Positions 2 through 14,884 of a stretch of DNA of 64,000 nucleotides are shown piece after piece. Below the pieces are notes generated by a model. That model made no database searches. It was not told the DNA's origin and saw only the letters and a program-made list of their open reading frames with translations. How positions within the stretch are numbered: the stretch's first letter is position 1; each line of letters begins with the position of its first letter. Position numbers and translations under genes: made by a program. Source of the stretch: Streptomyces sp. NA02950 (GTDB taxonomy: Bacteria > Actinomycetota > Actinomycetes > Streptomycetales > Streptomycetaceae); NCBI RefSeq assembly GCF_013364155.1, contig NZ_CP054916.1:558001-622000 (forward strand), given 5' to 3'.

Positions 2-3000
2 ACATCACAACCGCGCATTCCCACGCTGATCCTGGGCGGTGAGTCGCTGTCGCGATCCCTTGCCGCCGACCTCCTCGGCAACGATGTGGCCGGACGCGTC
101 GTCAACCACTACGGACCGACCGAGACGACCGTCGGAGCCACGTGCTTCATCGCCTCGGACACCACGGACATGCCCGCGGAAGAGGCGACGGTTCCCATCG
201 GCACCCCCATCGGCGCGGCCACGGTGCGCATACTCGATCCGGAAGGCGGGGAGGAGCGCGGCCAACGGCCGGGTGAACTGCTCATCGGCGGGGCGGGAGT
301 AGCTGTCGGCTACTACAACCAGCCCGACACGACGGCTCGCCACTTCATCGACCATCAGGGCGACCGCATGTACCGTACCGGTGACGTCTGTCGGCGCCGC
401 GCGGACGGGAACCTCGTCTTCATCGGCCGATCCGACCGCCAGGTCAAGATCCGTGGCTTTCGGGTTGATCCTTCGGAGATCGAGCGGGCCATCGACAGCC
501 ATCCGGATGCGCTGCAGTCGGCGGTGATCGTCCGCAAGGCCCCCGCAGGCGATCAACTGTTCGCGGCGGTACGGGTTTCCGGCAACCGCCCCCCTCATCA
601 CATCGTCGATCCACTGCGTACGTATCTGCGGGGCCTGTTGCCGGAGCACGCGGTGCCTGCCCAGATCATCGCTGTGCGGCGTTTCCCGGTCGGCCCGAGC
701 GGCAAGCTCGACACCGCGTCCCTGTCCGCGAAGGTGAACGAGATCATCGAACAGCGCGCCCGAGCACCGGTCGCCGCACTCGGCGGGACACCGCGTCGCG
801 ACACCGCGGACCTGGCGGAGGACCTGGCGAAGCTCTGGTCGGATGCGCTCGGCATCTCCGGACTCGGCACGGACGTCGACGTCTTCACGCTCGGTGGCGA
901 CTCGATTCTGGCGATGCGCACCGTCGCGTTCCTCCGTCGTCGCGGATGTGACATCACCGTCGAGGACGTGTACCGGAACCCCACCTGCACGCTCCTCTCC
1001 CAGGCAGCCCGCCGGTCCGGCGAGACTCCGCTCTCGCCCTCGCCGAGTTCCGCCGGTGACCGGACGTTGGCGCCGCCACAGCGATGGTTCTTCCGGCAAC
1101 CCATCCGGGAGCCACACCGCTGGAACCAGACGGTCGTGCTGCTGTGCCGCGAGTCGGTCGACCCACCCGCGCTGTCCGAGGCCATCGTGGCGGTGCTGCA
1201 CAAGCATCCCGTGCTGCGGCAACCGATCGGTGCGGCCGGCCCCATCGGCGATCCTCGGCGCGCGCCGGACTTGAACGTTCTGACCTTCTCGTTTCTGCCC
1301 GCAACGCCGACCGAGATCAGCGCTGCCGTGAACGAGATGGGCGGCGCCCTGCAAGACGGCCTGGACCTGGAGGCCGGGAGGCTCGTCCGGGGACATCTGT
1401 TCATCGGCGGTCGTGGCATCGACGACCGGCTCGTGATCACCGTGCACCACCTGGCTGTGGACGGCGTGTCCTGGCGCATCATCTTCAACGATCTCGCCGC
1501 GGCATACGCGCAGGCACGGGCAGGGCAGACGCCGCGCTTCACCTCGTCGGGTGACTACTACCAGTGGGCGAAGATCGTGACGCCGTCGCGCACCGCGGAC
1601 CTGAGTCCGCGCACGGTGCCACGAGCCGGCGGCCACGCACCGCGACCGGCCGCGCTGACCTGGGGGCTGGACGAGGTGGCCACCACCGTTCTCACCGCGC
1701 GGTGCGGGCAAGCACACGACCTGGAGGCAGTGTTGCTCGCCGCGTTCGGCGATGGCCTCAGGACGTGGAGCGCCCAACGCGAGGTGACCGTCGAGGTCGA
1801 GACGCATGGACGGGACGAAGCCGACTACATGGATACCGTCGGTTGGTTCACCGCCGTCAAGCGGGTGAGAATCGACCTCGTCGGCGCGGACGAGGCCCAC
1901 GACCGCACGCGGGACATCGAGCGAGGCGTCCACCAGGCGCCGCAACTGCCGATGGATACGGCAGGCCCCCGTCCGAACGTCGGCTTCAACTTCCTGGGAA
2001 CCTTCCGCTTGCCGGAGGAACAGTCGTTGCGGTGGACCGTCGCCACCGAGACGGCAGGCGCCGCACGCTGTCCCAGTGGTGATCCGCTCTACGATGTCCG
2101 GCTCACGGCTCGTATCATCCACGGCAAACTCGTGACCGATCTCGTGTACGACGAGTCGAAGGTTGCCGCAGACCGGGCGGAAGGAATCTTCACCGCCTTC
2201 AGCCACGGAGTCGCGGCACGGGCAGGTCTGGCCGAGGTCCCCCCACTCGTGGTCTCGCCGATATCCACCTCCGGAGCGGTCCTGCACCTGGGCACCGTCG
2301 CCCAGCAGCAGCCGCGCCTCGAGGCGGTGCACGAACCGGTACCGGTGCTGCTGACGGGAGCCACCGGTTACCTGGGGGGACATGTGCTGACCGAGTTGGT
2401 CAGCCGAGGCGCCCATGTGACGTGCCTGGTCCGTGGCGAGCGGGACGAAGCCATGCGGCGCGTCGAGCCGCTCCGCGGAGCCGTGGACATCGTCGTCGGT
2501 GACATCACCGAGGAGAACCTGGGACTGTCCCAGGCGGAGGCCGCAACCGCTCGCGACGCCCGGGTGATCGTGCACGCGGCGGCGGATGTCCGACTGGTGG
2601 CCCCACCCGCTGAACTGGAGCGCACCAACACCGAGGGCGTACGCCGCCTCCTGTCGTGGATCGACGCGGGGCGGGCGGATGTGCGGCTGCACCACGTCTC
2701 GACGCTGGCGGTGGCCGGTCACGTCGACGGTTCCGTGCGTCGCTTCAGCCAGGCTGATCTCAGCATCGGGCAGTCCTTCCGCAACCCGTACGAGCGCACG
2801 AAGTACGACGCGGAGGAGCTGATCCGGTCCTGGACGGCGCAGGGCCGTCAGGTGTACATCCACCGCAGCGGCCATGTTGCGGCGCACAGCCGAACCGGCG
2901 CCTTCCAGCACAACATCGACAACAATCGGATCTACCAGATCATTCACGACTACGTCCAGGCCGGCGTGGCGCCGCACCGGCCGTCGGTGACCTTCGCCTT

Positions 3001-3382
3001 CTCCCACGTCGACACCGTTGCGGCAGCGATGACCGCGATCGCACTGCATCCGTACGCCGCTCCGGGCGTGTACCACATCGAAACACCGCACGAAGTCCAC
3101 CATGACGAACTCGTGCGGTGGCTCGTCGACTACGGCTACCCCGTGCGTTTGGTGGACGAATCCGCCTTCGGCGCCACCACCGGACTGGCCGCACTGTGGT
3201 CCCAACTCGAGAGACAGAACGTCGTCATCGAACGCACCCGCACGGCCTCGGCGTTGGAGCGGCTGGGTGTGCGGTTCGCCGAGCCCACCCGCCAGTGGTG
3301 GTCCGCCGCACTGGACTGGGCGGTCGACGTCGGTTTCCTCCCGCCGCCGCACGGCGCGGATTCAGCGCAGTTCTCCGCCTGA
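2..3382 (+). CDS. NRPS terminal module A-T-E-R (5' end outside window)
   Basis: The frame is open from the left edge, so this is the 3' part of a larger nonribosomal peptide synthetase gene. Counting codons from base 2, the C-terminal half of an adenylation domain comes first (YGPTETT near 37, then MYRTGD, KIRGFRVDP, and GPSGKLD near 235). A carrier domain follows (LGGDSI, phosphopantetheine Ser about 301). Next is an epimerisation-type condensation domain: PPQRWFF, HHLAVDGVSW near 482, ETHGRDE near 601, TVGWFTAV near 613, GFNFLGTF near 662. Last is a thioester reductase with TGATGYLG near 785 and YERTK (Tyr about 930, Lys about 934). R domains use NAD(P)H to release the tethered peptide as an aldehyde or alcohol. 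There is no thioesterase. The downstream aminotransferase fits an aldehyde product. Substrate specificity residues lie outside the window. Confidence 0.93.
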   Translation, partial: TSQPRIPTLILGGESLSRSLAADLLGNDVAGRVVNHYGPTETTVGATCFIASDTTDMPAEEATVPIGTPIGAATVRILDPEGGEERGQRPGELLIGGAGVAVGYYNQPDTTARHFIDHQGDRMYRTGDVCRRRADGNLVFIGRSDRQVKIRGFRVDPSEIERAIDSHPDALQSAVIVRKAPAGDQLFAAVRVSGNRPPHHIVDPLRTYLRGLLPEHAVPAQIIAVRRFPVGPSGKLDTASLSAKVNEIIEQRARAPVAALGGTPRRDTADLAEDLAKLWSDALGISGLGTDVDVFTLGGDSILAMRTVAFLRRRGCDITVEDVYRNPTCTLLSQAARRSGETPLSPSPSSAGDRTLAPPQRWFFRQPIREPHRWNQTVVLLCRESVDPPALSEAIVAVLHKHPVLRQPIGAAGPIGDPRRAPDLNVLTFSFLPATPTEISAAVNEMGGALQDGLDLEAGRLVRGHLFIGGRGIDDRLVITVHHLAVDGVSWRIIFNDLAAAYAQARAGQTPRFTSSGDYYQWAKIVTPSRTADLSPRTVPRAGGHAPRPAALTWGLDEVATTVLTARCGQAHDLEAVLLAAFGDGLRTWSAQREVTVEVETHGRDEADYMDTVGWFTAVKRVRIDLVGADEAHDRTRDIERGVHQAPQLPMDTAGPRPNVGFNFLGTFRLPEEQSLRWTVATETAGAARCPSGDPLYDVRLTARIIHGKLVTDLVYDESKVAADRAEGIFTAFSHGVAARAGLAEVPPLVVSPISTSGAVLHLGTVAQQQPRLEAVHEPVPVLLTGATGYLGGHVLTELVSRGAHVTCLVRGERDEAMRRVEPLRGAVDIVVGDITEENLGLSQAEAATARDARVIVHAAADVRLVAPPAELERTNTEGVRRLLSWIDAGRADVRLHHVSTLAVAGHVDGSVRRFSQADLSIGQSFRNPYERTKYDAEELIRSWTAQGRQVYIHRSGHVAAHSRTGAFQHNIDNNRIYQIIHDYVQAGVAPHRPSVTFAFSHVDTVAAAMTAIALHPYAAPGVYHIETPHEVHHDELVRWLVDYGYPVRLVDESAFGATTGLAALWSQLERQNVVIERTRTASALERLGVRFAEPTRQWWSAALDWAVDVGFLPPPHGADSAQFSA

Positions 3383-3411
3383 CCGCAATCGCGAAGAAGT
3401 GAGGGTAAAAG

Positions 3412-4692
3412 GTGGCACAACTGTCCCCGGTACTCAAACAGGCCGTACCGATCGTGGCGACGCGGGGCGAGGGCATGTACCTCTTCGACGCCGACGATCG
3501 CCGTTTCCTCGACTTCACCGCCGGTGTGGGAGTGACCAGCACGGGGCATTGCCATCCCCGCGTCGTGGAAGCCGCGCAAGCCCAGGTCGCGAAGCTGATC
3601 CACGGACAGTACACGACGGTGCGACACGAGCCGCTGCTCGCGCTGACCGAGCGGCTCGGCACGGTGCTGCCGGCGAACCTGGATGCGCTGTTCTACGTCA
3701 ACTCCGGCAGCGAAGCGGTCGAAGCGGCGCTGAGACTCGCCAGGCACGCCACGGGCCGGCAGAACGCCGTTGTCTTCTCCGGCTCGTTCCACGGCCGGAC
3801 CATGGGGGCCGCCGCGCTGACCACGGCGGGCACCCGGTTTCGCGCGGGCATCGGTCCCCTCATGCCCGGCGTGGCCGTGGCACCGTTCCCGCACGCGTTC
3901 CGCCTTGGCATGACCCAAGAGCAGGCCGTCGCTTTCGCATTGCGGGAACTGGACACCGTTTTGGCCAGCGAGAGTGCGCCCGAGGAGACAGCGGCGTTCT
4001 TCGTTGAACCGGTGCTGGGCGAGGGCGGCTACGTCCCCGCTCCACCCGCTTTCCTCGCCGGACTGCGCGAACGCGCCGACAGACACGGAATCCTGCTGGT
4101 GCTGGACGAGATCCAGACCGGGGTCGGCCGCACCGGAAGATTCTGGGCACATGAACACAGCCCTGGCACGACACCGGACGTGCTGGTCACGGCGAAAGGG
4201 CTCGCCAGCGGCTTCCCCCTGTCGGCGATCGCGGCCTCCGCCACGGTGATGGAACGCGCTTGGCCGGGGTCGCAGGGCGGCACCTACGGCGGCAACGCGG
4301 TGTCGTGCGCCGCCGCGCTGGCCACGCTCGACGTCATCGAGGACAACAAGCTCGTGGACAACGCCGCGCGGCAAGGCAGCAGGCTGGTCGAGGGGTTGCG
4401 CGGTGTCGCCGCCGAGCACTCCGCCATCGCGGATGTCCGCGGACTGGGCCTGATGGCTGCCAGCGAGTTCTGCCATCCCGACGGCTCACCGGACCCCGCG
4501 ACGGCGCGGAGTGCTCAGCAGGCCGCGGCGGAACTCGGCCTGGTGGTGCTCACGTGCGGCGTGCACAGCAACGTGGTCAGGATGATGCCGGCCTTGATCG
4601 TCACAGCCGGGCAGATCGACGACGCGGTGGCGGTGTGGTCGCGGGCCGTCGCGCAAGCCCTGCGGGCGACGAGGGCGGGGGGCCATGAATAA
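3412..4692 (+). CDS. Class III PLP-dependent aminotransferase
   Basis: This 426-aa protein is a fold-type I class III aminotransferase of the ornithine/4-aminobutyrate group. It shows YVNSGSEAVEAALRLAR for cofactor phosphate binding, LVLDEIQTGVGRTG with the cofactor Asp, and the PLP lysine K262 in VTAKGLASGFP. The GTG start follows GAGGG with a 6-nt spacer, 29 bp after the NRPS stop. Placed directly behind a reductase-terminated NRPS, it probably converts the released aldehyde to a primary amine, the logic known for myxochelin B, where an NRPS reductase works with the aminotransferase MxcL. An alternative is a role in making an amino acid building block such as a diamino acid. The 3' end overlaps the next gene by 8 bp, indicating translational coupling. 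Confidence 0.9.
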   Translation: MAQLSPVLKQAVPIVATRGEGMYLFDADDRRFLDFTAGVGVTSTGHCHPRVVEAAQAQVAKLIHGQYTTVRHEPLLALTERLGTVLPANLDALFYVNSGSEAVEAALRLARHATGRQNAVVFSGSFHGRTMGAAALTTAGTRFRAGIGPLMPGVAVAPFPHAFRLGMTQEQAVAFALRELDTVLASESAPEETAAFFVEPVLGEGGYVPAPPAFLAGLRERADRHGILLVLDEIQTGVGRTGRFWAHEHSPGTTPDVLVTAKGLASGFPLSAIAASATVMERAWPGSQGGTYGGNAVSCAAALATLDVIEDNKLVDNAARQGSRLVEGLRGVAAEHSAIADVRGLGLMAASEFCHPDGSPDPATARSAQQAAAELGLVVLTCGVHSNVVRMMPALIVTAGQIDDAVAVWSRAVAQALRATRAGGHE

Positions 4693-6343
4693 GGCCAAGC
4701 CGCCGCTGCCCTTGCCCTCATTGGAGGCCAGTTGCCGGCAGTACCTGCGGGCGGTCCGCCCGCTGCAGACCGATGAGCAGCACCGTAGGACGAGCACGTT
4801 GGTGGAGAAGCTCCTCACCGGGGACGGGCCCGCTTTGCACGAAGCCCTGGCGGCGTGGGGCCGGACCACGGGATCCGGCTGGCTGGAACCGCTGTGGGTG
4901 GAGACGTACCTGGAGGACCGGCGTCCGCTGCCCGCATGCCAGAGCGCCGTCCTGGTGCCAACCCAGATCCTCCGGCCGACCGGTGTCGGCTACGCCCGGT
5001 GGGTCGCGGCCGTGGCGCTCGCCGCGGTCGAGTACACGCTGCGGGAGGGGGAAGACGACCACGGCGACCCCGCACTCCTCCGCGCGACCCGGATACCGGG
5101 ACTCAAACGCGACACCATCGCCGACCATCCCGCATCCGATTATTTCGTGGTTCTGCGCGCCGGCCGTATGCACCGCGTCCGCGCCCGATGGGGCAGTCGA
5201 GGCCCGCATGAGCTGGAAGAGATCATGAAGGAGATCCTCCGGCTTCCGCCCGCCACGCATACGCCGATCGCGGCGCTGACCGCGGCGCGGCGAACGGAGT
5301 GGGCGGTGTGGCGGGACGTCCTGGTCGACAGTGGCCCCCACAACGCGCACGTTCTTCAGACGGTGGAAACGGCGATGTTCGTGCTGTGCCTCGACGACGC
5401 CGAGGGACAGAGCGTCGCGGAGGCCGCTCATCGCTTCATGGTCGGCAATCCAGCCAGTCGGTGGCACGACAAGGCGGCGCAGATCATGCTCGACCTCGAC
5501 GGGCGCATCGGCTTCAGCTTCGAACACTCCCGCGGGGACATGGCGAGCTTCCAGGCGCTCACCGCACATGTCCGGGAAAAATCTCCGGAAATCGCGGTGG
5601 CCCCGCAGGGCGGCCGGTCCGATGTGCGGCGCGAGGAACTGTGCTGGGACGACGTCGGCCCCGTGTTGGAGCGGGCCGCGAGCAAGGCGCAGCAGTTCGC
5701 CTTGGCACAGGAGAGCAGATTGACCACGGTTGCCGCCCGTGTGGAGAACGCGGGCACGGAGACCTGTGGGCTCCTGGCCGACGCCGTTGTCCACGTGGCG
5801 GCACAGTTGGCTCACGTCGGGCTACGAGGAAGGCCGGCCTGGGCGTACCAGCCGGTTGACATGTCGCGCTATGCGGGCGGTCGGATCGAAGTGATGCGGC
5901 CGGTGTCGCCGGAGATGCTCGAGTTCATCCGGCTGGAGGGTGAGAACGCGTCCGCGGAGGACCGGCGCGCGGCCCTGATTCGTACCGCCACCGAACATCG
6001 CCGTCGGCAGACCGAGTGCATAACCGGCTCGGCTTCGGAGCGTCACCTCTTCGCGTTGAAGACATTTGGCGAGCACATTTTTGGTGACCATGCGGAAATG
6101 TTCGACGACGTTGCATGGGAGCGACTGCATTCCCGGCTCGAGCTGTCAACGACCTCGGTGCCGAGGATGGGGGTTGTTCCCTTCAGCCCCGGTTCGGTCG
6201 ACGGTTACGGATTGGCCTACGACATCGGATCGACCGGGATCTTCTGCACTGTGATCACTCAAGAGAGCAGTGCTTCGGACTATTTGGTCACGCTGGCCAA
6301 CGAAATCAACAGGGTCGCGGCGTTGTTGCACAACCGGAGGTGA
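4685..6343 (+). CDS. Choline/carnitine O-acyltransferase family protein in NRPS operon
   Basis: This 552-aa protein matches the carnitine acyltransferase fold by motif order. It has WLEPLWVETYLEDRRPLP near residue 66, NPASRWHDKAAQIMLD near 255, the presumed catalytic histidine His281 in SFEHSRGD, and a C-terminal LSTTSVP...VDGYGLAYDI block that corresponds to the STS and acyl-acceptor region. Family members move acyl groups between CoA and a hydroxyl acceptor. They are common in mitochondria and rare in bacterial secondary metabolism. The ATG lies inside the aminotransferase gene (8-bp overlap). Its place in the operon suggests acylation of the NRPS product, on an alcohol or on the amine created upstream, but the acceptor is an inference. 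The usual DG after the catalytic His region is replaced by DM, which may reflect an unusual substrate. Confidence 0.75.
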   Translation: MNKAKPPLPLPSLEASCRQYLRAVRPLQTDEQHRRTSTLVEKLLTGDGPALHEALAAWGRTTGSGWLEPLWVETYLEDRRPLPACQSAVLVPTQILRPTGVGYARWVAAVALAAVEYTLREGEDDHGDPALLRATRIPGLKRDTIADHPASDYFVVLRAGRMHRVRARWGSRGPHELEEIMKEILRLPPATHTPIAALTAARRTEWAVWRDVLVDSGPHNAHVLQTVETAMFVLCLDDAEGQSVAEAAHRFMVGNPASRWHDKAAQIMLDLDGRIGFSFEHSRGDMASFQALTAHVREKSPEIAVAPQGGRSDVRREELCWDDVGPVLERAASKAQQFALAQESRLTTVAARVENAGTETCGLLADAVVHVAAQLAHVGLRGRPAWAYQPVDMSRYAGGRIEVMRPVSPEMLEFIRLEGENASAEDRRAALIRTATEHRRRQTECITGSASERHLFALKTFGEHIFGDHAEMFDDVAWERLHSRLELSTTSVPRMGVVPFSPGSVDGYGLAYDIGSTGIFCTVITQESSASDYLVTLANEINRVAALLHNRR

Positions 6344-6349
6344 TGTGCT

Positions 6350-7168
6350 TTGTTCACCGAACAGGATACGGAGCAGTACTACGACCACAAGGACGATCTG
6401 TACAGGTCCTTCTGGGATCCGGCGGGAGGCTTGCATTACGGCTACTTCCCCGATCCAACCGCTGAGCGGTCACAGAGCACAGCCGAGCAGCTCCTCACCG
6501 CCTTCCGCGACTGGGATGAGGAGTTGCTCGCGCGGAGCGGGATCACCGGGAGCTCCACCGTGCTGGACGTCGGTTGCGGAAACGGCACCACGTCGGTCTG
6601 GCTGGCGCGGCACACCGGGTGTCAGGTGACCGGCATCGACCTCAGTCAGGTCCGGACCGACAACGCACGACGCCTGGGCGAGACGAATCCCGATGCACGG
6701 GTGACGTTCCGAAAGGCGTCCGCGACGGACATCCCGTACTCCGACGGGGCGTTCTCGCACGCGTGGAGCCAGGCCACCCTCTACCACGTGCACGAGCGCT
6801 CGCGTGCGCTCGCGGAGGTGCACCGCGTGCTCCGGGACGACGGTGTGTTCGCCTTCGACGACCTCACCACGCCGCGAACGCCGGTCGGCCCCACGTCCCA
6901 GCGGCTCATTTACGATCGCCTGCTCTTCGAGCCGACGTTCAGCGCGGAGCAGTACGTCGCGCGCCTTGCCGGTGCCGGATTCGAGGTGGAGGACACCATC
7001 GACCTGAGCCGGCATCTCAAGGGCACCTACGAGCTGCTGGTGAAGCAGGTGACCGCATTGGCTCCCGAACTCGCGGTCCCGTACCAGGCCATGATCGACG
7101 GGATCGACGCGGGAGAAGTCGGATGGTCCGGCTTCACATGCCGAAAGGTGGCCCGACATGCCGCGTAG
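6350..7168 (+). CDS. SAM-dependent methyltransferase, class I
   Basis: The 272-aa protein has the class I SAM-binding glycine loop VLDVGCGNG (residues 71-79) followed by the acidic ribose-binding segment VTGIDLS. The N-terminal stretch YYDHKDDLYRSFWDP and the overall length resemble small-molecule N- or O-methyltransferases of the sarcosine/dimethylglycine and UbiE-like type. The start is TTG at 6350, 9 nt behind GGAGG and 6 bp after the acyltransferase stop. It overlaps the next methyltransferase by 11 bp. Within the NRPS operon it is a likely tailoring enzyme, perhaps for N-methylation of the new amine. The target position cannot be read from the sequence. Confidence 0.85.
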   Translation: MFTEQDTEQYYDHKDDLYRSFWDPAGGLHYGYFPDPTAERSQSTAEQLLTAFRDWDEELLARSGITGSSTVLDVGCGNGTTSVWLARHTGCQVTGIDLSQVRTDNARRLGETNPDARVTFRKASATDIPYSDGAFSHAWSQATLYHVHERSRALAEVHRVLRDDGVFAFDDLTTPRTPVGPTSQRLIYDRLLFEPTFSAEQYVARLAGAGFEVEDTIDLSRHLKGTYELLVKQVTALAPELAVPYQAMIDGIDAGEVGWSGFTCRKVARHAA

Positions 7169-7796
7169 CGTCGATGAACTCCTCTCCTGGATCTATGAGC
7201 CGGTGGAGCGCGACGTCCTCGCGGAGAAGTACGACACATGGGCGTCCACCTACGACGACGACCTTGGGGCCGGCTATCGCGTCTCACCGATCGCGGCCGC
7301 ACGCGCTCTCGCTCGCGCACTCCCCGGTCGGGACAGCCGTATCCTCGACGCGGGTGCAGGCACGGGATTGTGCGGAGAGGAACTGCACGAGCTCGGCTGG
7401 ACGAACGTCGAAGCGGTGGACATGTCCGCCGAGATGCTCGCGGTGTCACGTCGCAAAGGTGTGTACCGCGACTACCACCGCTGCGACTTGGAGGAGGACG
7501 CTGAATTCTTCCCGGCCGCGAGCTTCGACGGAATCGTGACCACGGGCGTCATCACGCGCAACCACGCGGGACACCGTTCAGTGCGCAACATGGACAGGTG
7601 GTTGAAACCGGACGGGGCCGTGGTCGTCGCGATCCTGCGGGACTACCTCGAGTCACAGGAAGAACTCCGTGAAGTGTTTACGACGGTGCCTTGGACCCTC
7701 GAAACGGTCAATACCGTCACGATCTTCGACTCCACCGAAGTCGGCATCTACACCTACCGCAAGAGGAAGCCAGGACCCCAGGATGCGGAACGCTGA
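7158..7796 (+). CDS. Second SAM-dependent methyltransferase of the NRPS operon
   Basis: A 212-aa class I methyltransferase with the SAM loop ILDAGAGTG (62-70) and an acidic segment VEAVDMSAEML. The N-terminal KYDTWASTYDDDL and the DAGAGTG variant recall the METTL27/WBSCR27-like group rather than UbiE proteins, so it is not a recent duplicate of its neighbour. It begins 11 bp inside the preceding methyltransferase gene and is the last gene of the five-gene run, followed at once by a short GC hairpin. Two methyltransferases of different subfamilies in one operon suggest two separate methylations of the final product. Confidence 0.82.
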   Translation: MPRSVDELLSWIYEPVERDVLAEKYDTWASTYDDDLGAGYRVSPIAAARALARALPGRDSRILDAGAGTGLCGEELHELGWTNVEAVDMSAEMLAVSRRKGVYRDYHRCDLEEDAEFFPAASFDGIVTTGVITRNHAGHRSVRNMDRWLKPDGAVVVAILRDYLESQEELREVFTTVPWTLETVNTVTIFDSTEVGIYTYRKRKPGPQDAER

Positions 7797-8255: not shown

Positions 8256-9557
8256 ATGTCCGACGTACTGCGCTGGACCGTGTTCGCGGTCTTGGCGCTG
8301 ATCATCGTGCTTGCCACCGCGCGCCTCGGTGCCTGGCTGGCCCGGCTGCTGCGCCAGCCGGAGGTCGTCGGGGAGATCTCCCTCGGCCTGCTGGCGGGTC
8401 CGTTGCTGGTGTGGGCGGGAGGAACCGGGCTCCGCCACGTTCTGTTCGGCGACGGCAGATGGGATGCGCTGAACCTGGTGGCGCACGGCGGGCTCGTACT
8501 GTTCATGGTCGGCGTCGGGCACGAGCTCACATCCGGTGCCACCGCACCGAGGGCACGCCCGCTGGTGAGCACGGCGATCGGCGCACTGCTGGCGCCCGCC
8601 GCGCTCGGCGTGGGCATGGCCGTGTGGTTGCAGGGGCAGGGCAGCGCCTTGCGCGGTACCGCCCCCACACCGGCCTTCACCCTGGTGCTGGCGGTCTCGC
8701 TGAGCGTCACCGCGGTGCCGGTGCTGGCCAGGATTCTCATCGAGCGTGGGCAGGTGCACACCGCGGCGGCGCGGCTGGCCCTGGGCGCGGGAGCGCTGAT
8801 CGACCTCGTCGCCTGGGCTGTGCTGGCGCTGGCCATCGCCATCGCCGGTGGTGGGTCGGTGCCGGCGGTGCTGGGTCGGATCGGCACCCTGCTGAGCATC
8901 GGACTGCTCGCCGCGCTGCTGGCGGTCGCGCTGCGCCGGGTCCCCGGTGGGCGGTCCAGGACGCTGAGCGCCGTGCTCATCGGGGTGGTCGCCCTCGGAT
9001 TGTCGTTGGTGGCCAAGGTGTTGGGCGTCAACGAGATTCTGATGGCCCTGGCGCTGGGGCTGGCGATTCCCCACGACGGCCGCGGGGGTGCGTGGTGCGC
9101 CGCGGTGGAGCCGGTGACGCGGGTGGGCCAGGCGCTGGTGCCGGTGCTCTTCTTCGTGACGGGTACCGGCGTGTTCACCTCGGAGATCGACGTCCTGCCG
9201 TGGCTCGCGACCGGGGTCGCGCTCGTCCTCGCCATCGTCGGCAAAGTCGGCGGCACCTACCTCGGTGCCCGCGCGGGCGGCTGCTCCCCGCACGCCGCGC
9301 TGGAACTGGGGGTGCTGCTCAACACGCGCGGCCTGACCGAACTGGTCGTCCTGCAGGCCGCCTACGCGGCGGGGATCCTGCCGCCCGCCCTGTACCTCGC
9401 ATTGGTGCTGATGACGCTGGTGACCACTGCGATGACCGGCCCCCTGCACGCCCGCATGACGCGTGGCGAGACGGCCGGGACCGAAACGACCGGGACCGAA
9501 ACCACCAGGACCGAAACGACCGGGGCCACGACGACGAAGCGGGAGACAGCGGCATGA
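8256..9557 (+). CDS. CPA2-type cation:proton antiporter
   Basis: The 433-aa protein has about twelve hydrophobic segments and the hallmarks of the Na+/H+ exchanger (KefB/CPA2) family: RQPEVVGEISLGLLAGP near the N-terminus, SLSVTAVPVLARIL in the middle, and GVLLNTRGLTELVVL in the C-terminal bundle. The ATG at 8256 begins a peptide that enters a membrane helix at once. The C-terminus ends in a hydrophilic Thr/Glu tail made by a 15-bp tandem repeat. The stop overlaps the next start (ATGA), so it is coupled to the MFS gene. Antiporters of this type sit at the edges of several actinomycete antibiotic clusters, for example glycopeptide clusters. A role in self-protection or ion balance is inferred. 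Confidence 0.85.
   Translation: MSDVLRWTVFAVLALIIVLATARLGAWLARLLRQPEVVGEISLGLLAGPLLVWAGGTGLRHVLFGDGRWDALNLVAHGGLVLFMVGVGHELTSGATAPRARPLVSTAIGALLAPAALGVGMAVWLQGQGSALRGTAPTPAFTLVLAVSLSVTAVPVLARILIERGQVHTAAARLALGAGALIDLVAWAVLALAIAIAGGGSVPAVLGRIGTLLSIGLLAALLAVALRRVPGGRSRTLSAVLIGVVALGLSLVAKVLGVNEILMALALGLAIPHDGRGGAWCAAVEPVTRVGQALVPVLFFVTGTGVFTSEIDVLPWLATGVALVLAIVGKVGGTYLGARAGGCSPHAALELGVLLNTRGLTELVVLQAAYAAGILPPALYLALVLMTLVTTAMTGPLHARMTRGETAGTETTGTETTRTETTGATTTKRETAA
9477..9536 (+). repeat. 15-bp tandem repeat encoding a Thr/Glu tail
   Basis: Three near-perfect copies of GGGACCGAAACGACC (9477-9491, 9492-9506, 9507-9521) and a degenerate fourth copy. The unit is a multiple of three, so the frame is kept and gives a GTETT-type tail on the antiporter. 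Confidence 0.85.
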
Positions 9558-10801
9558 GCACCGAACACGCACCCACTGCGGCCACCCGGCACATCGGACT
9601 CGATCCGGTGCGCGCGGCGCCGGCGAGCTATGGCGAGGTGCTGGCGCTGCCCTCGATCCGGGCGCTCTACGGGGTGGCCTTCGCCGCCCGATTACCGCTC
9701 ACCGCGACCAGTGTCGTGCTCACGCTGCACGTCGCGGTGGGCCACGGTCGCGGGTTCGCCGTGGCCGGGATGGTCGGCGGCGCGTTCGCCGGAGGCATGG
9801 CGGTCGGCGCCCCGGGGTTGGGCCGGATGGTGGACCACTTCGGGTTGCGCCCGGTGCTCGCGCTGTGCGGGTGCGCGGATGCGGTGTTCTGGGGCGTCGG
9901 CCCGTTCCTGGACCCCAGGTGGCTCGCTCTCGCCGCCATCGCGGCGGGGGCGTTGACGCTGCCGGCGTTCTCGGTGGTACGCCAAGCGCTCGGGGCCATG
10001 ACCACCCCCGCGCACCGCCGCCCCGCGTTCGCCCTGGACGCGATGTCGGCCGAGGTGTCCTACATCGTGGGGCCGGCCCTCGGCAGCGCCGCGGCTCTCA
10101 CTCTGCCGACGACGGTGGCGATGTGGCTGGTCGGCGGCGGGTTCCTGGTGACCACGCTCGCGCTGTGGCTGCTGGACCCGCCCACACGCGACCTGTCCGG
10201 GCCCGGCGGCACCGCGGCCGCGCCCCGCGTGCGGAGCTGGCTGGGCCGCCCCATGGTCGCGGCGCTCGCCGGGGCGGCGGCGGCGATCCTGCTCCAGTCG
10301 GCCACCGAGTTGTCGGTGGTGGCCACGCTGACCGGGCGTGGCGAGACCGGGTGGTTCGCGCTGACGAACGCCGTCTGGTGCGCGGCGTCCCTGGTCGGCG
10401 GCTTCCTGTACGGCGCCGCAGCGCGCCCGCTTCCGCTGCCGGTACTGCTCGGGCTGTTTGCGGCCGGGCCGGTGCCGGTGGCGCTCGGCGGACCGTGGTG
10501 GTTGATGACGTTGCTACTCATGCCCGCCGGATTCTTCTGCGCGCCCGCACTCGCCGCCGCCGCCGAAAGAGTCGGGCGGCTTGCCCCGGACGCGGCCCGC
10601 GGGACGGCGACGGGGCTGCACAGTTCGGCGATCATGGCCGGAGGGGCGGTCGCGGGCCCGCTGACCGGTGTGCTCATCGAAACCGCCTCCCCGGCGGTGG
10701 CGATCCTCGCGGCCGCCGGAGCCTGCGCGCTCGTGGCGGCGCTGGCATCGATCGCGGACCGTGGTCCCACCGGGCCAGTGGGGCGACGCCCGCACCGCTG
10801 A
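9554..10801 (+). CDS. MFS transporter
   Basis: A 415-aa protein with twelve predicted hydrophobic segments in two halves, and an MFS loop 2-3 motif variant GLGRMVDHFGLRPV near residue 95. The ATG overlaps the antiporter stop by the ATGA arrangement, so the two are expressed together. It resembles drug/metabolite efflux MFS proteins of actinomycetes. Export of the NRPS product is the obvious reading, but only from position. A GC hairpin lies 120 bp after the stop. Confidence 0.82.
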   Translation: MSTEHAPTAATRHIGLDPVRAAPASYGEVLALPSIRALYGVAFAARLPLTATSVVLTLHVAVGHGRGFAVAGMVGGAFAGGMAVGAPGLGRMVDHFGLRPVLALCGCADAVFWGVGPFLDPRWLALAAIAAGALTLPAFSVVRQALGAMTTPAHRRPAFALDAMSAEVSYIVGPALGSAAALTLPTTVAMWLVGGGFLVTTLALWLLDPPTRDLSGPGGTAAAPRVRSWLGRPMVAALAGAAAAILLQSATELSVVATLTGRGETGWFALTNAVWCAASLVGGFLYGAAARPLPLPVLLGLFAAGPVPVALGGPWWLMTLLLMPAGFFCAPALAAAAERVGRLAPDAARGTATGLHSSAIMAGGAVAGPLTGVLIETASPAVAILAAAGACALVAALASIADRGPTGPVGRRPHR

Positions 10802-11114: not shown

Positions 11115-11541
11115 GTCGACTCCTCTCCAGCGATACTTTCGCCCCATCCGCACCGATCACATCGGCGTCTCATTCCGTGATCATGACGCGCGGACCAGCT
11201 GCACCACTCGTCATCCTGTCTCGTGACGCACCTCCACGGCCCTCCCTCCGGCGCGGTCGGAGCCTCCGGCTCGGCGGTTCGATGCCTGCACCTCGTCCTC
11301 GATGACGCGGACCGGGAGCTGAACCGGGACGCCACACACTCCCGCCGCCCCGGCCGGCCCCGGCCGTACCAAGGCCCTGGTCACGGGCCGTCATCACCCA
11401 TTCGGCCCCTCCAGGCTGCCGCCGGGTGCCGGAGAGGACAAAGTGGAGCCGTGGCGCGGCCCGCCGAGCGCACAGGCGCCGGCCTTATCCCTGCGGCCAT
11501 CGGGTCCCTCCCACCGGCCCAGGCAGGTCAGGAGACCGCTC
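11115..11541. other. Intergenic stretch, no gene recognised
   Basis: About 430 bp containing the divergent upstream regions of the bL37-like gene and the methyltransferase-like gene. Long open frames run through it but give Pro/Arg-rich peptides with no recognisable domain. Confidence 0.5.
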
Positions 11542-12411
11542 ATGGCAGCAGGAGCGAGCAACATCACCGCGAACGCCGACTGGGGCAAAGCAAACTTCAA
11601 CGACATCTACGACTGTCCCGACCCACGCCCGTACTTCGCAACCCTGCGATCCCTCGAGTACCAGATACCCCACCATGGCCAGGCCGTCTTCCAGGCACTG
11701 GCCCACGCCCTACGCTGCCTTCACCCCGACCGGACGCCACTGAACGTGGTGGACCTGTGCTGCTCCTACGGGATCAACACAGCTCTCCTCAACCACCGTG
11801 TCACTCTGCCGGACCTGTACACCCGGTACACCTCCCACCACCTCTCCGCCCTGCCGACCCGGCACCTCGCGGCCGAGGACCGGACCTTCTTCGCGGAGCG
11901 CCGCCGCCCGGAAGCCGCAACGGCCACGGGCATCGACTCGGCAGCCCGAGCCGTCGGATACGCCCGCGCCGTCGGCCTGCTCGACCACGCCTTCGCGGAG
12001 AACCTCGAAGTCACCGAACCCAGCCCCGCCCTGCGCCGCACACTGGCGGGCACGGACCTCATCACCGTCACGGGCGGCGTCGGCTACGTCTTCACCCGCA
12101 CCTTCACCAGGCTTCTCGACTCCATGCCGACCCCGCCGTGGGTCGCGGCTTTCGTACTGCGCACCGTGCCCTACCAGCCGATCGCCGATCTGCTCGCCCG
12201 CTCGGGGCTGGTGACGGAGAAACTGTCCACCCGCACCTTCCGGCAGCGCCGCTTCGCCAACAGCGCCGAACGACACGCGGCGTTCGACACCCTGGCTGCG
12301 AACGGACTGCACACGGCAGACAAGGAAGCGGACGGCTACTACCACACCGACCTGTATGTCTCCCGGCCCGCTCCCGACATCGCGGCGCTGCCTCTCACAC
12401 GCCTGCTGTAA
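11542..12411 (+). CDS. SAM-methyltransferase-like protein
   Basis: The 289-aa product carries VVDLCCSYGINTALL near residue 73, which reads as a class I SAM-binding motif with the usual GxG replaced by CCSYG. This form occurs in a set of streptomycete proteins annotated as class I methyltransferases. The start is an ATG 8 nt after GGAG. The N-terminus (NFNDIYDCPDPRPYFATLRSLEYQIP) places a conserved YDxPDPRxYF block before the fold. It stands alone, with no operon partner. The catalytic role is uncertain because the motif is atypical. Confidence 0.6.
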   Translation: MAAGASNITANADWGKANFNDIYDCPDPRPYFATLRSLEYQIPHHGQAVFQALAHALRCLHPDRTPLNVVDLCCSYGINTALLNHRVTLPDLYTRYTSHHLSALPTRHLAAEDRTFFAERRRPEAATATGIDSAARAVGYARAVGLLDHAFAENLEVTEPSPALRRTLAGTDLITVTGGVGYVFTRTFTRLLDSMPTPPWVAAFVLRTVPYQPIADLLARSGLVTEKLSTRTFRQRRFANSAERHAAFDTLAANGLHTADKEADGYYHTDLYVSRPAPDIAALPLTRLL

Positions 12412-12735: not shown

Positions 12736-13589
12736 GTATCGGCGGCTTCTGGTCGATCGGTGCGGGGTTGGCGGAACGACTGGTGCCACCGGCCTCGGTC
12801 GGCAGGGCTACTGCTGTGATCTTCTCTGCCGTCCCGCTGGGATCCGTCCTCGGCGTGCCGACTGGCACCCTCATCGGAGATCTCGCCGGATGGCGAACGG
12901 CCTTCACCCTCATGGGAGCGCTGACGGTCGGCGTACTGATCATGCTGCTCTTGCTCGTGCCGCCGCTTCCTCCGGTCCGGGACACACGGCTGGGCGTCCT
13001 GGGCGGCATGCTCCGCAGCGTCAGCATCCGCTTCGCGCTCTTGCTGACGTTCCTTGTTGTGCTGGCTCACTTCGGCACCTACACCTACGTGACACCATTC
13101 TTGGAGCAGGTCACCCACGCCAGTGGCGGTCTGATCACTACATTCTTGCTGCTCTACGGTGCCGCCGGGATCCTCGGCAACTTCCTGGGCGGCGCCTGGG
13201 TGGCCCGGTATCCCCGGACCATCTTCGGGCTCGCGGCCGGACTGATCGCCACGGTGACCCTCCTGCTTCCAGCGCTGGGCCGCTGGGAGACCGGCGCAGT
13301 GATACTGCTGATCGTATGGGGCATGGTGTATGGCGCCGTGCCAGTCGCGTCGCAGACCTGGTTCTCCAAGGCCGCACCGCATGCCCCGGAAGCGGCATCG
13401 GTCCTGTTCACCGCCTCCTTCCAGGCAACCTTCTCTATTGGTGCACTCGTAGCGGGAGTCATCCTGGACCGCACCTCTCCATCCGCGGTCATGCTGTTTG
13501 GCGGATGCACCGCGGTTCTCATGGTCCTGGCAGTAGGGGCTCGCTTCGCCCAACGCCTCACCGGTCCGGACTGCGAGGAGCGATCCTGA
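12736..13589 (+). pseudogene. MFS efflux permease lacking its N-terminus
   Basis: The frame encodes about 284 residues of a DHA1-type (arabinose/purine efflux-like) MFS protein, starting at IGGFWSIGAGLAERLVP and continuing through the central loop and the C-terminal six helices to the natural end. The first three helices, which carry the start codon and the RxGRR motif, are absent. No start with a ribosome site precedes the homologous part. The break coincides with the remnant of another membrane gene on the opposite strand. Confidence 0.75.
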
Positions 13590-13695
13590 ACGCATTGAAA
13601 CGCGCCCACAGTTGCTTCTGTCGAACGCTTGCCACATCGTCCCTCACCCCTGCTGCTTGGTCAGCCACTGACCATTCGGCTCATTGTGTTAGCCG

Positions 13696-13711
13696 TTCTG
13701 AGAGCTCGTAA
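13696..13711 (+). repeat. 16-nt motif, left copy
   Basis: TTCTGAGAGCTCGTAA here and TTCTGTGAGCTCGTAA at 15069-15084 differ by one base and have the same orientation. The right copy lies 16 bp outside an IS5-type transposase fragment, so both may be insertion-sequence end remnants. They bracket the GNAT-infA pair. Confidence 0.5.
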
Positions 13712-13800
13712 ACTGCTGCCCCTGGAGCTGAGGTTCGGCTCGGGCCAGAGCTGCTGGCGGCGGCTGGAGTGGTGGCGCCGCGGCCGGGCGCGCCATCATC

Positions 13801-13837
13801 GGGGTCCCGGTCACGGAAACGCCGCGACCGGGACCCC
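13801..13837 (-). terminator. Terminator hairpin after infA paralogue
   Basis: A 12-bp perfect stem, GGGGTCCCGGTC and GACCGGGACCCC, with a 13-nt loop, 35 bp beyond the infA stop on the minus-strand side. Confidence 0.65.
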
Positions 13838-13871
13838 AGGATCAGCTACCGCGGAAGGCGCCCGACCGCCG

Positions 13872-14096
13872 CTAGTTCCGGTACCGGAACACGATCCGGC
13901 CGCGCGTCAGGTCGTACGGCGGGAGCTCCACCAGCACCCGGTCTTCCAGCATGATCTTGATGTAGTTCTTGCGGATCTTCCCGCTGATGTGCGCGAGCAC
14001 TTGGTGGCCGTTCTCGAGCTCCACGGTGAACATGGCGCTGCGCAGGCACTCGACGACCTTGCCCTCGACTTCGATGACGTTCTTGTTCTTCGTCAT
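13872..14096 (-). CDS. infA: Translation initiation factor IF-1 paralogue
   Basis: The 74-aa protein is a full-length IF-1: [16 protein letters not shown], then the OB-fold core ([20 protein letters not shown]) and the typical end [17 protein letters not shown]-1 binds the 30S A site during initiation. The housekeeping copy in actinomycetes sits in the ribosomal-protein region between map and rpmJ. This one is instead coupled to an acetyltransferase gene, its ATG overlapping that stop as ATGA. The core differs from the usual sequence at several places ([16 protein letters not shown]), so it is probably a specialised paralogue. A strong hairpin follows. Confidence 0.93.
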
Positions 14097-14884
14097 CGCA
14101 CCAGCTCCAGGTTGCTGCTCATCGGCCGGGCGCCGATGCCCTCGAACAGCGCCGAGGCTGCTTGGTTGGACTCCTGGACTTCGGTCCGGGCCGCGGGGAA
14201 CCCGGAGCGGTGCAACGTCCCCAGCGCGTGGGCCAGCAGCGCCCGCGCGATGCCGCGGCGCTGCTCGCCGGCCCGGACCGCGACCAGCCCGATACGCGGC
14301 CGGCTCACCGTCACCACCCGGATCAGACCCAGGTAGCGGTCCGGCGCCGCGGCCACCGCGTACTTCGACGGATCGACGATGGTGTCGCCTTCGGGGCGGG
14401 GAATTACCTCCGCGGGCATCGACTTCCACCCGACCGTCGCCGCGACTTCGTCACGGATCGCGCGGTCCACCGCCCGCAGCAGACTCTCGTCCGCCTGACC
14501 GGCGGGCACGATCGTCACGCCCGAAGGCAGCAGGACTGCTTCGAGCCCCGTGCCCCGCGGGTCGGTCGGCACGACGTACTCCCACTCGCGGCGCCCGATC
14601 GTGAAACCGGCCCGCCGCCAGCCGGCCGTCAGCTCGACGTCGGCTTCGTCGACCACCGTGTACAACGGCGCTGGCAGTTCCGCCAGCATCGCCTCGGCGA
14701 GCCGGTCGAAGGTGGCGTCGTGCCAGGCGTCGATGCTGACGAACAAGCGTCCGTCGGGCCGGTGCTCCGCATGCCCGCGGCCAACCACCAGGTCGTCATC
14801 CAGTGCATGCCATTGCCTGTCCGCAACGCGCGTGATCATCACCGCGTTCTCGCTCAGGCCAGATGTGAAAGGCTTCGTGTTCAT
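14093..14884 (-). CDS. GNAT acetyltransferase coupled to infA
   Basis: The 263-aa protein ends in a GNAT domain with the acetyl-CoA-binding motif [13 protein letters not shown] and the following [20 protein letters not shown] segment typical of the fold. The N-terminal half (residues 1-110) lacks a familiar motif and may be a degenerate second GNAT half. The ATG at 14884 follows AAGGAG by 7 nt. The stop overlaps the infA start, so the two proteins are made together. Acetylation of a translation component or of an antibiotic is a possibility, but the substrate is unknown. Confidence 0.8.

Follow-up and report, generated by a model that had tools for sequence, protein, structure and literature searches.

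The subject of this report is a putative biosynthetic operon of the soil bacterium Streptomyces sp. NA02950, which crosses the left edge of a stretch of 64,000 nucleotides (G000:C1:558001-622000 of a 9.6 Mb contig; hereafter the window); 40 kb to the left of the window were also examined. The operon starts at G000:C1:552738, approximately 5 kb outside the window, and encodes, in this order, a carrier protein, a short-chain dehydrogenase/reductase (SDR), an AMP-ligase, a halogenase, a nonribosomal peptide synthetase (NRPS), an aminotransferase, a carnitine/choline acyltransferase-fold protein (CAT) and two methyltransferases (MT1 and MT2). The first four genes (G000:C1:552738-556989) lie to the left of the window. 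Consecutive genes are spaced by -4, -4, +9 (measured from the listed GTG start), +124, +29, -8, +6 and -11 bp. Directly upstream of the operon a LysR-type regulator gene is located (L010, ~13529-14440), and to the left of it there is a fragment with a sub-threshold match to a DDE transposase domain (25.9 bits, cut-off 28.6). The features within the window are:

2..3382, + strand: C-terminal 1,126 codons of the NRPS (Pfam AMP-binding, PP-binding, Condensation-type and NAD_binding_4, all above cut-off)
3412..4692, + strand: class III pyridoxal phosphate-dependent aminotransferase, similar to gamma-aminobutyric acid (GABA) aminotransferases (Pfam Aminotran_3, 398.5 bits)
4685..6343, + strand: CAT (Pfam Carn_acyltransf, 311.8 bits)
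6350..7168, + strand: MT1, class I S-adenosylmethionine (SAM) methyltransferase (Pfam above cut-off; nearest solved structure MitM)
7158..7796, + strand: MT2, class I SAM methyltransferase (Pfam above cut-off; nearest solved structure methyltransferase-like 27)
8256..9557, + strand: Na+/H+ antiporter (35-37% identity to antiporters near cmlS in three genomes)
9554..10801, + strand: major facilitator superfamily (MFS) transporter, overlapping the antiporter stop (ATGA)

A first-pass annotation had described an A-T-E-R (adenylation, thiolation, epimerisation, reductase) module, a class III aminotransferase, a carnitine acyltransferase-like protein and two methyltransferases with overlaps or gaps of 6-29 bp; the Pfam matches and the last four spacings given above agree with this. 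It had also expected the remaining NRPS modules to the left. Extension in that direction lengthened the operon by four genes, but brought no extra NRPS modules, the NRPS being a complete single module preceded by a cmlMJKS-type cassette. The likely product is decided by the aspartate-type code of the A domain and by the CmlS-type halogenase, the latter encoded to the left of the stretch covered by that annotation.

The NRPS (1,422 aa) begins with an ATG at window position -886 (G000:C1:557114), with GAGGAGG upstream, and its domains extend to ~740 (A), and over ~821-985 (T), ~1064-2324 (E) and ~2345-3379 (R) of the window. Alignment on GrsA gave the A-domain code DLTKIGHVG(K) (nine variable positions), which is, as judged from these residues, of the aspartate type; in the same alignment six other A domains of this genome and four CmlP-type domains had unrelated codes. 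Published assignments of the code DLTKVGHVGK are Asp and Asn, mostly Asp (PMC12283262), and OH-Asp (PMC10391617). Sequences related to the T-E-R part number 907 at E 0.001, and among the best 120, the NA02950 protein included, 111 have the pattern DLTK[LIV]GH[VI]G; by this code and its architecture of ~1,400 aa the NRPS belongs to an Asp-type A-T-E-R family. Its T serine is present and the R-domain motifs GATGYLG and YERTK are kept. The condensation-type domain carries HHLAVDG, ETHGR, TVGWF and FNFLG, which we take to be epimerase motifs; the E assignment rests on them because the domain matches the post-condensation model TIGR01720 only weakly (27.3 bits, below the cut-off of 74.2). Against the MxcG model the NRPS scores 280 bits (cut-off 2300).

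Named homologues of the Asp-type A-T-E-R family come from Streptomyces, Kitasatospora, Nocardiopsis, Nocardia, Amycolatopsis and mycobacteria (P0124-P0235). A 34% homologue, with a code that is Asp-type by eye, is located on plasmid p3 of Rhizobium leguminosarum (L098:13992-18215), where it adjoins serS, genes for a thiamine pyrophosphate enzyme and a TauD-like dioxygenase, and two annotated NRPSs; this serS might mark a compound directed at seryl-tRNA synthetase.

The four upstream genes encode the stand-alone carrier protein (108 aa, with no Pfam or NCBIfam match and recognised by homology to the loci described below), the SDR (232 aa), the AMP-ligase (~469 aa) and the halogenase (604 aa as called, with homology from residue 36). 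The halogenase contains a CmlS_C domain and scores 975.5 bits against NF033113, the CmlS equivalog model (cut-off 900), and because it passes this cut-off the four genes very probably constitute a dichloroacetyl cassette. When the species-genome collection was scanned with the halogenase, 26 pattern stretches were obtained. Ten of them encode relatives, and in all 10 loci the order carrier protein-SDR-ligase-halogenase is kept, with identities to the NA02950 proteins of 49-58%, 64-66%, 56-60% and 64-70%, respectively. This order equals that of cmlM-J-K-S of chloramphenicol, which are among the genes proposed for dichloroacetylation, with roles called obscure (PMC4249514); CmlS is implicated in dichloroacetyl formation, with a malonyl substrate proposed (PMC8407142). 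At E<=1e-100 the halogenase was matched, among 394 class genomes, only in its own genome and, partially, at one interrupted site. The latter (L071, G380:C1:2713307-2714221) is 60% identical over query residues 271-573, has one internal TAG and is probably a decayed copy.

A full-length CmlP-type NRPS is encoded in six of the ten cassette loci (L032, L034-L037 and L040; 66-72% identical to the L040 protein), L040 being the cluster of M. carbonacea ATCC 39149, cited as a chloramphenicol cluster (PMC4249514). A gene in the cmlH position (60-67% to L040) is present in nine of the ten, including L033, L039 and L041, and missing from L038; in L041 it stands beside part of CmlP. The idea that the cassette serves several non-chloramphenicol pathways (L033, L039, L041) was dropped, since the cmlH-position gene was found at the edges of these loci. 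By gene content, nine of the ten therefore appear to be chloramphenicol clusters or near variants of them; only L038 and the NA02950 locus, which alone lack both the CmlP- and the CmlH-position genes in the stretches covered, suggest that the cassette is also used in another pathway. In L038 (L038:1648-11722, Actinocrinis puniceicyclus) the cassette is preceded by open reading frames (ORFs) of 424 and 823 aa, possibly another dichloroacetyl pathway. L033, L039 and L041 have permease-like and 448-453 aa genes between cmlM and the cmlH-position gene (L033 and L039 also an antiporter-like gene) and are apparently rearranged chloramphenicol-type clusters with inserted genes.

The ORFs of L040, with gene names inferred from the published order, were also compared with 60 kb around the NA02950 operon. 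Four of the 12 matched: the SDR, ligase and halogenase fully, and CmlP over its A domain alone (29%). The cmlA-, cmlI- and cmlH-position genes had no match in these 60 kb (E 0.01 for the last). The p-aminophenylalanine genes were incompletely queried, cmlB being partly in L040 and cmlC, D and E outside it, and the query was limited to the same 60 kb. Thus, the two systems share the cassette with its gene order, a reductase-terminated one-module NRPS and a nearby Na+/H+ antiporter gene, but the NA02950 NRPS is distinguished by its E domain and Asp-type code, and an aminotransferase, a CAT and methyltransferases are found instead of the unmatched chloramphenicol genes. An amidase gene at window -9069..-7618 was considered as CmlH and rejected, as it has no match in any of the ten cassette loci (E 1e-4). 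With the cmlH-position gene missing, another acyl-transfer enzyme could be needed. This absence and the narrowing of the cassette's known homes pull in opposite directions, and the odds given below were left unchanged by them.

A candidate for such an enzyme is the CAT. Its PF00755 match spans positions 1-564 of 574, and the catalytic His343 (CrAT numbering, used throughout) is kept, in FEHS. Tyr452 and Arg518 are kept as well, and with Thr465 they presumably form the carnitine carboxylate site (all three fall at the expected positions in the CrAT alignment, which bears out the numbering). Three residues are changed: Thr465 to Ile, Glu453 to Gln and Ser454 to Pro. Lys419 is replaced by Thr, and Lys423 is deleted, with the same three-residue gap in MAFFT and phmmer alignments. 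In all ten of the other actinomycete CATs compared, Thr465 and Lys423 are conserved, position 518 is Gln, and Lys419 is replaced (by Ser in nine, by Ala in one). According to PMC11852590, the two lysines, 419 and 423, interact with the 3'-phosphate of coenzyme A (CoA). Because both are lost here, a natural reading is that the acyl donor would be other than CoA, namely the CmlM-like carrier protein; in fungi there are CAT domains that release acyl groups from their carriers (PMC10901484). The loss of these lysines speaks likewise against a quite improbable alternative, in which the dichloroacetyl group is placed by another enzyme, as in chloramphenicol, while the CAT attaches a further, different acyl group taken from CoA. 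Transfer without a CAT is possible, as the chloramphenicol gene table in PMC4249514 (table 3) has none, but the match of just four L040 ORFs and the missing cmlH-position gene count against a chloramphenicol-like transfer here.

The CAT has few relatives. None of 13 stretches in the genome contig collection encoded a close one, none was found among plasmids, and in the protein database (7,996 candidates scored) only the protein itself and one animal protein (25%) were matched. At E<=1e-20 matches occur in 26 genomes of the family (297 searched) and in 41 of the class (394 searched); both sets include the NA02950 genome and have some genomes in common, and all matches other than its own are 30-36% identical. 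The NA02950 genome has no further CAT at this threshold, its sole match being the cluster gene. Aminocarnitines inhibit carnitine acyltransferases (PMC11852590), and the CAT might accordingly be not a biosynthetic enzyme but a resistant stand-in for the target, conferring self-resistance. We consider this very improbable: there is no other CAT in the genome to protect, the CAT gene overlaps the aminotransferase stop, and both the carnitine and the CoA sites are altered.

Distant CAT homologues of actinomycetes form a conserved trio with a HalD/BesD-like Fe/2-oxoglutarate enzyme and a methyltransferase-like protein (L042-L051; L013-L031; L052-L069). The oxygenase family is present in all ten of the 20-kb loci, and the trio CATs have Gln at the Arg518 position in all ten compared.

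The eleven best of 197 PDB sequences matched by the aminotransferase are GABA aminotransferases (298 to 247 bits), as against ~183 bits for ornithine aminotransferases. A 58% homologue adjoins an annotated GabD fragment. The aldehyde of GABA aminotransferases is succinic semialdehyde, and the substrate predicted below is this compound plus one amino group; the likeness is a support, not a proof, of that substrate.

What was observed is which genes are present and in what order, the domain motifs, the halogenase's match to the CmlS equivalog, the A code and the CAT residues; from these we infer the following reactions: (i) the CmlM/J/K/S-like proteins would assemble a dichloroacetyl group on the separate carrier protein, in the manner proposed for chloramphenicol; (ii) the A-T-E-R enzyme would load and epimerise L-aspartate, and its R domain would free D-aspartate alpha-semialdehyde (3-amino-4-oxobutanoate); (iii) the GABA-type aminotransferase would turn this aldehyde into (R)-3,4-diaminobutanoate; (iv) one or both methyltransferases would methylate the terminal amine, three methyl groups giving (R)-aminocarnitine (emeriamine); (v) the CAT-fold enzyme would acylate the 3-amino group with dichloroacetyl taken from the carrier protein or from CoA; and (vi) the MFS/antiporter pair would export the product. 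Confidence is highest for steps (i)-(iii) and lowest for full trimethylation and the identity of the acyl donor.

In general terms, we give about an even chance to the operon making a dichloroacetylated (R)-3,4-diaminobutanoate derivative with the CAT as the acyltransferase. Aldehyde release, transamination, acylation and methylation, as envisaged by the first-pass annotation, are still the best reading, and only its "peptidyl" amine had to be given up, the NRPS having one module. The more specific proposal is tentative and, taken as a whole, somewhat unlikely: that the product would be N-dichloroacetyl-(R)-aminocarnitine, a bacterial chlorinated emericedin, that a free-standing CAT would have turned into a carrier-protein-dependent N-acyltransferase, and that the cassette would be a portable module outside the chloramphenicol pathway. 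By the Cahn-Ingold-Prelog rules D-Asp yields an (R) centre, which we take to be the configuration of emeriamine, and this would explain the E domain. The (R)-aminocarnitine route would thus account for an E domain, a GABA-type aminotransferase, methyltransferases and a carnitine-type acyltransferase in one operon, and an aminocarnitine scaffold could be recognised by a carnitine acyltransferase fold.

Several observations weigh against the inferred pathway. The methylation pattern and the CAT acceptor are its weak points: with Thr465, Glu453 and Ser454 changed, the acceptor need not be carnitine-shaped, and the loss of Lys419, common to the ten other CATs, is not special to this one. MT1, proposed to be an N-methyltransferase, scores 81.4 bits against the sarcosine/dimethylglycine N-methyltransferase model (cut-off 550), far below the cut-off, and MT2 gives no hint, which makes N-trimethylation a guess. 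The aminotransferase reached no cut-off among the 25 best NCBIfam models, the best of which describes a broad subfamily. The A-T-E-R family is widespread, and asparagine is a possible substrate under the code as well. The function of cmlH is unsettled in PMC4249514, so its absence may mean something else. The product could, then, be a 3,4-diaminobutanoate (or the corresponding amide or lactam) that carries dichloroacetyl and methyl groups but is no trimethylammonium betaine, formed by O-methylation or a single N-methylation and by a CAT with a changed acceptor site. Consistent with this are the three altered CAT residues, methyltransferases with no diagnostic family match for either MT1 or MT2, and the report of an Asp-type code for Asn (PMC12283262). 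Nevertheless, a carnitine acyltransferase fold beside a predicted carnitine-shaped diamine is hard to explain without a betaine, and Tyr452 and Arg518 are kept; on balance such a non-betaine product is unlikely.

Emericedins, the N-acyl forms of emeriamine (aminocarnitine) from the fungus Emericella, resemble the predicted product in their N-acylated (R)-3-amino-4-trimethylammoniobutanoate core; they differ in that the NA02950 compound would be bacterial and its predicted acyl group dichloroacetyl. In myxochelin B biosynthesis an R-domain aldehyde is likewise passed to an aminotransferase, but here a single amino acid would be released, without a catechol and D-configured via the E domain, to be then acylated and methylated. 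The fungal polyketide synthase cAT domains (LtbA, Tv6-931) also use a CAT fold to pass an acyl group from a carrier to an acceptor other than carnitine (PMC10901484), whereas the NA02950 CAT is free-standing and bacterial, its proposed acceptor is an amine, and the carrier protein is a separate one. No second cluster with the same gene combination turned up, and none with the same order and a known product lacking an amine, in a search that was incomplete for NRPS sister clusters. No paper on this gene combination or on emericedin/aminocarnitine biosynthesis was found in the literature searched, which leaves most subscription journals outside.

If the aminocarnitine route is true, the operon would be a gene set for aminocarnitine and a bacterial source of carnitine acyltransferase inhibitors, with a chlorinated metabolic inhibitor, made from an aspartate-derived carnitine look-alike, of a kind undescribed in the literature searched. 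It would also provide a small system in which to study the formation and transfer of the dichloroacetyl group, called obscure for chloramphenicol (PMC4249514), and a carnitine acyltransferase fold acting as an amide-forming biosynthetic enzyme, and the product of the widespread Asp-type A-T-E-R family would become testable.

The antiporter gene begins 459 bp after MT2. In three genomes that have chloramphenicol-type loci its relatives sit ~16 kb from cmlS (contigs were paired by number and position); they are the genome's best match in two cases and the second best, stop-interrupted, in one. Among 150 same-genus genomes (its own included) it is matched at E<=1e-100 in its own genome only. Deletion of the antiporter gene lowered chloramphenicol output by ~60% (PMC4249514). 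By this location and homology the antiporter is a probable accessory gene of the cluster, and the MFS transporter a probable export gene. Identification of the latter as CmlF is unsupported, since none of its matches in the three reference genomes lies near their cml loci.

A methyltransferase-like gene at 11443-12411 first drew notice by a homologue (34-41%) that adjoins CAT homologues in 17 of 19 and 16 of 18 loci. It was rejected as a cluster member because it is widespread in Streptomyces, with matches in 36 of 150 same-genus genomes (its own included, E<=1e-60). No CAT was found within 18-20 kb of its homologues in four loci read, among them that of genome G782. In G782 the gene is 93% identical, and the best match of that genome to the cluster halogenase is merely 35% and partial.

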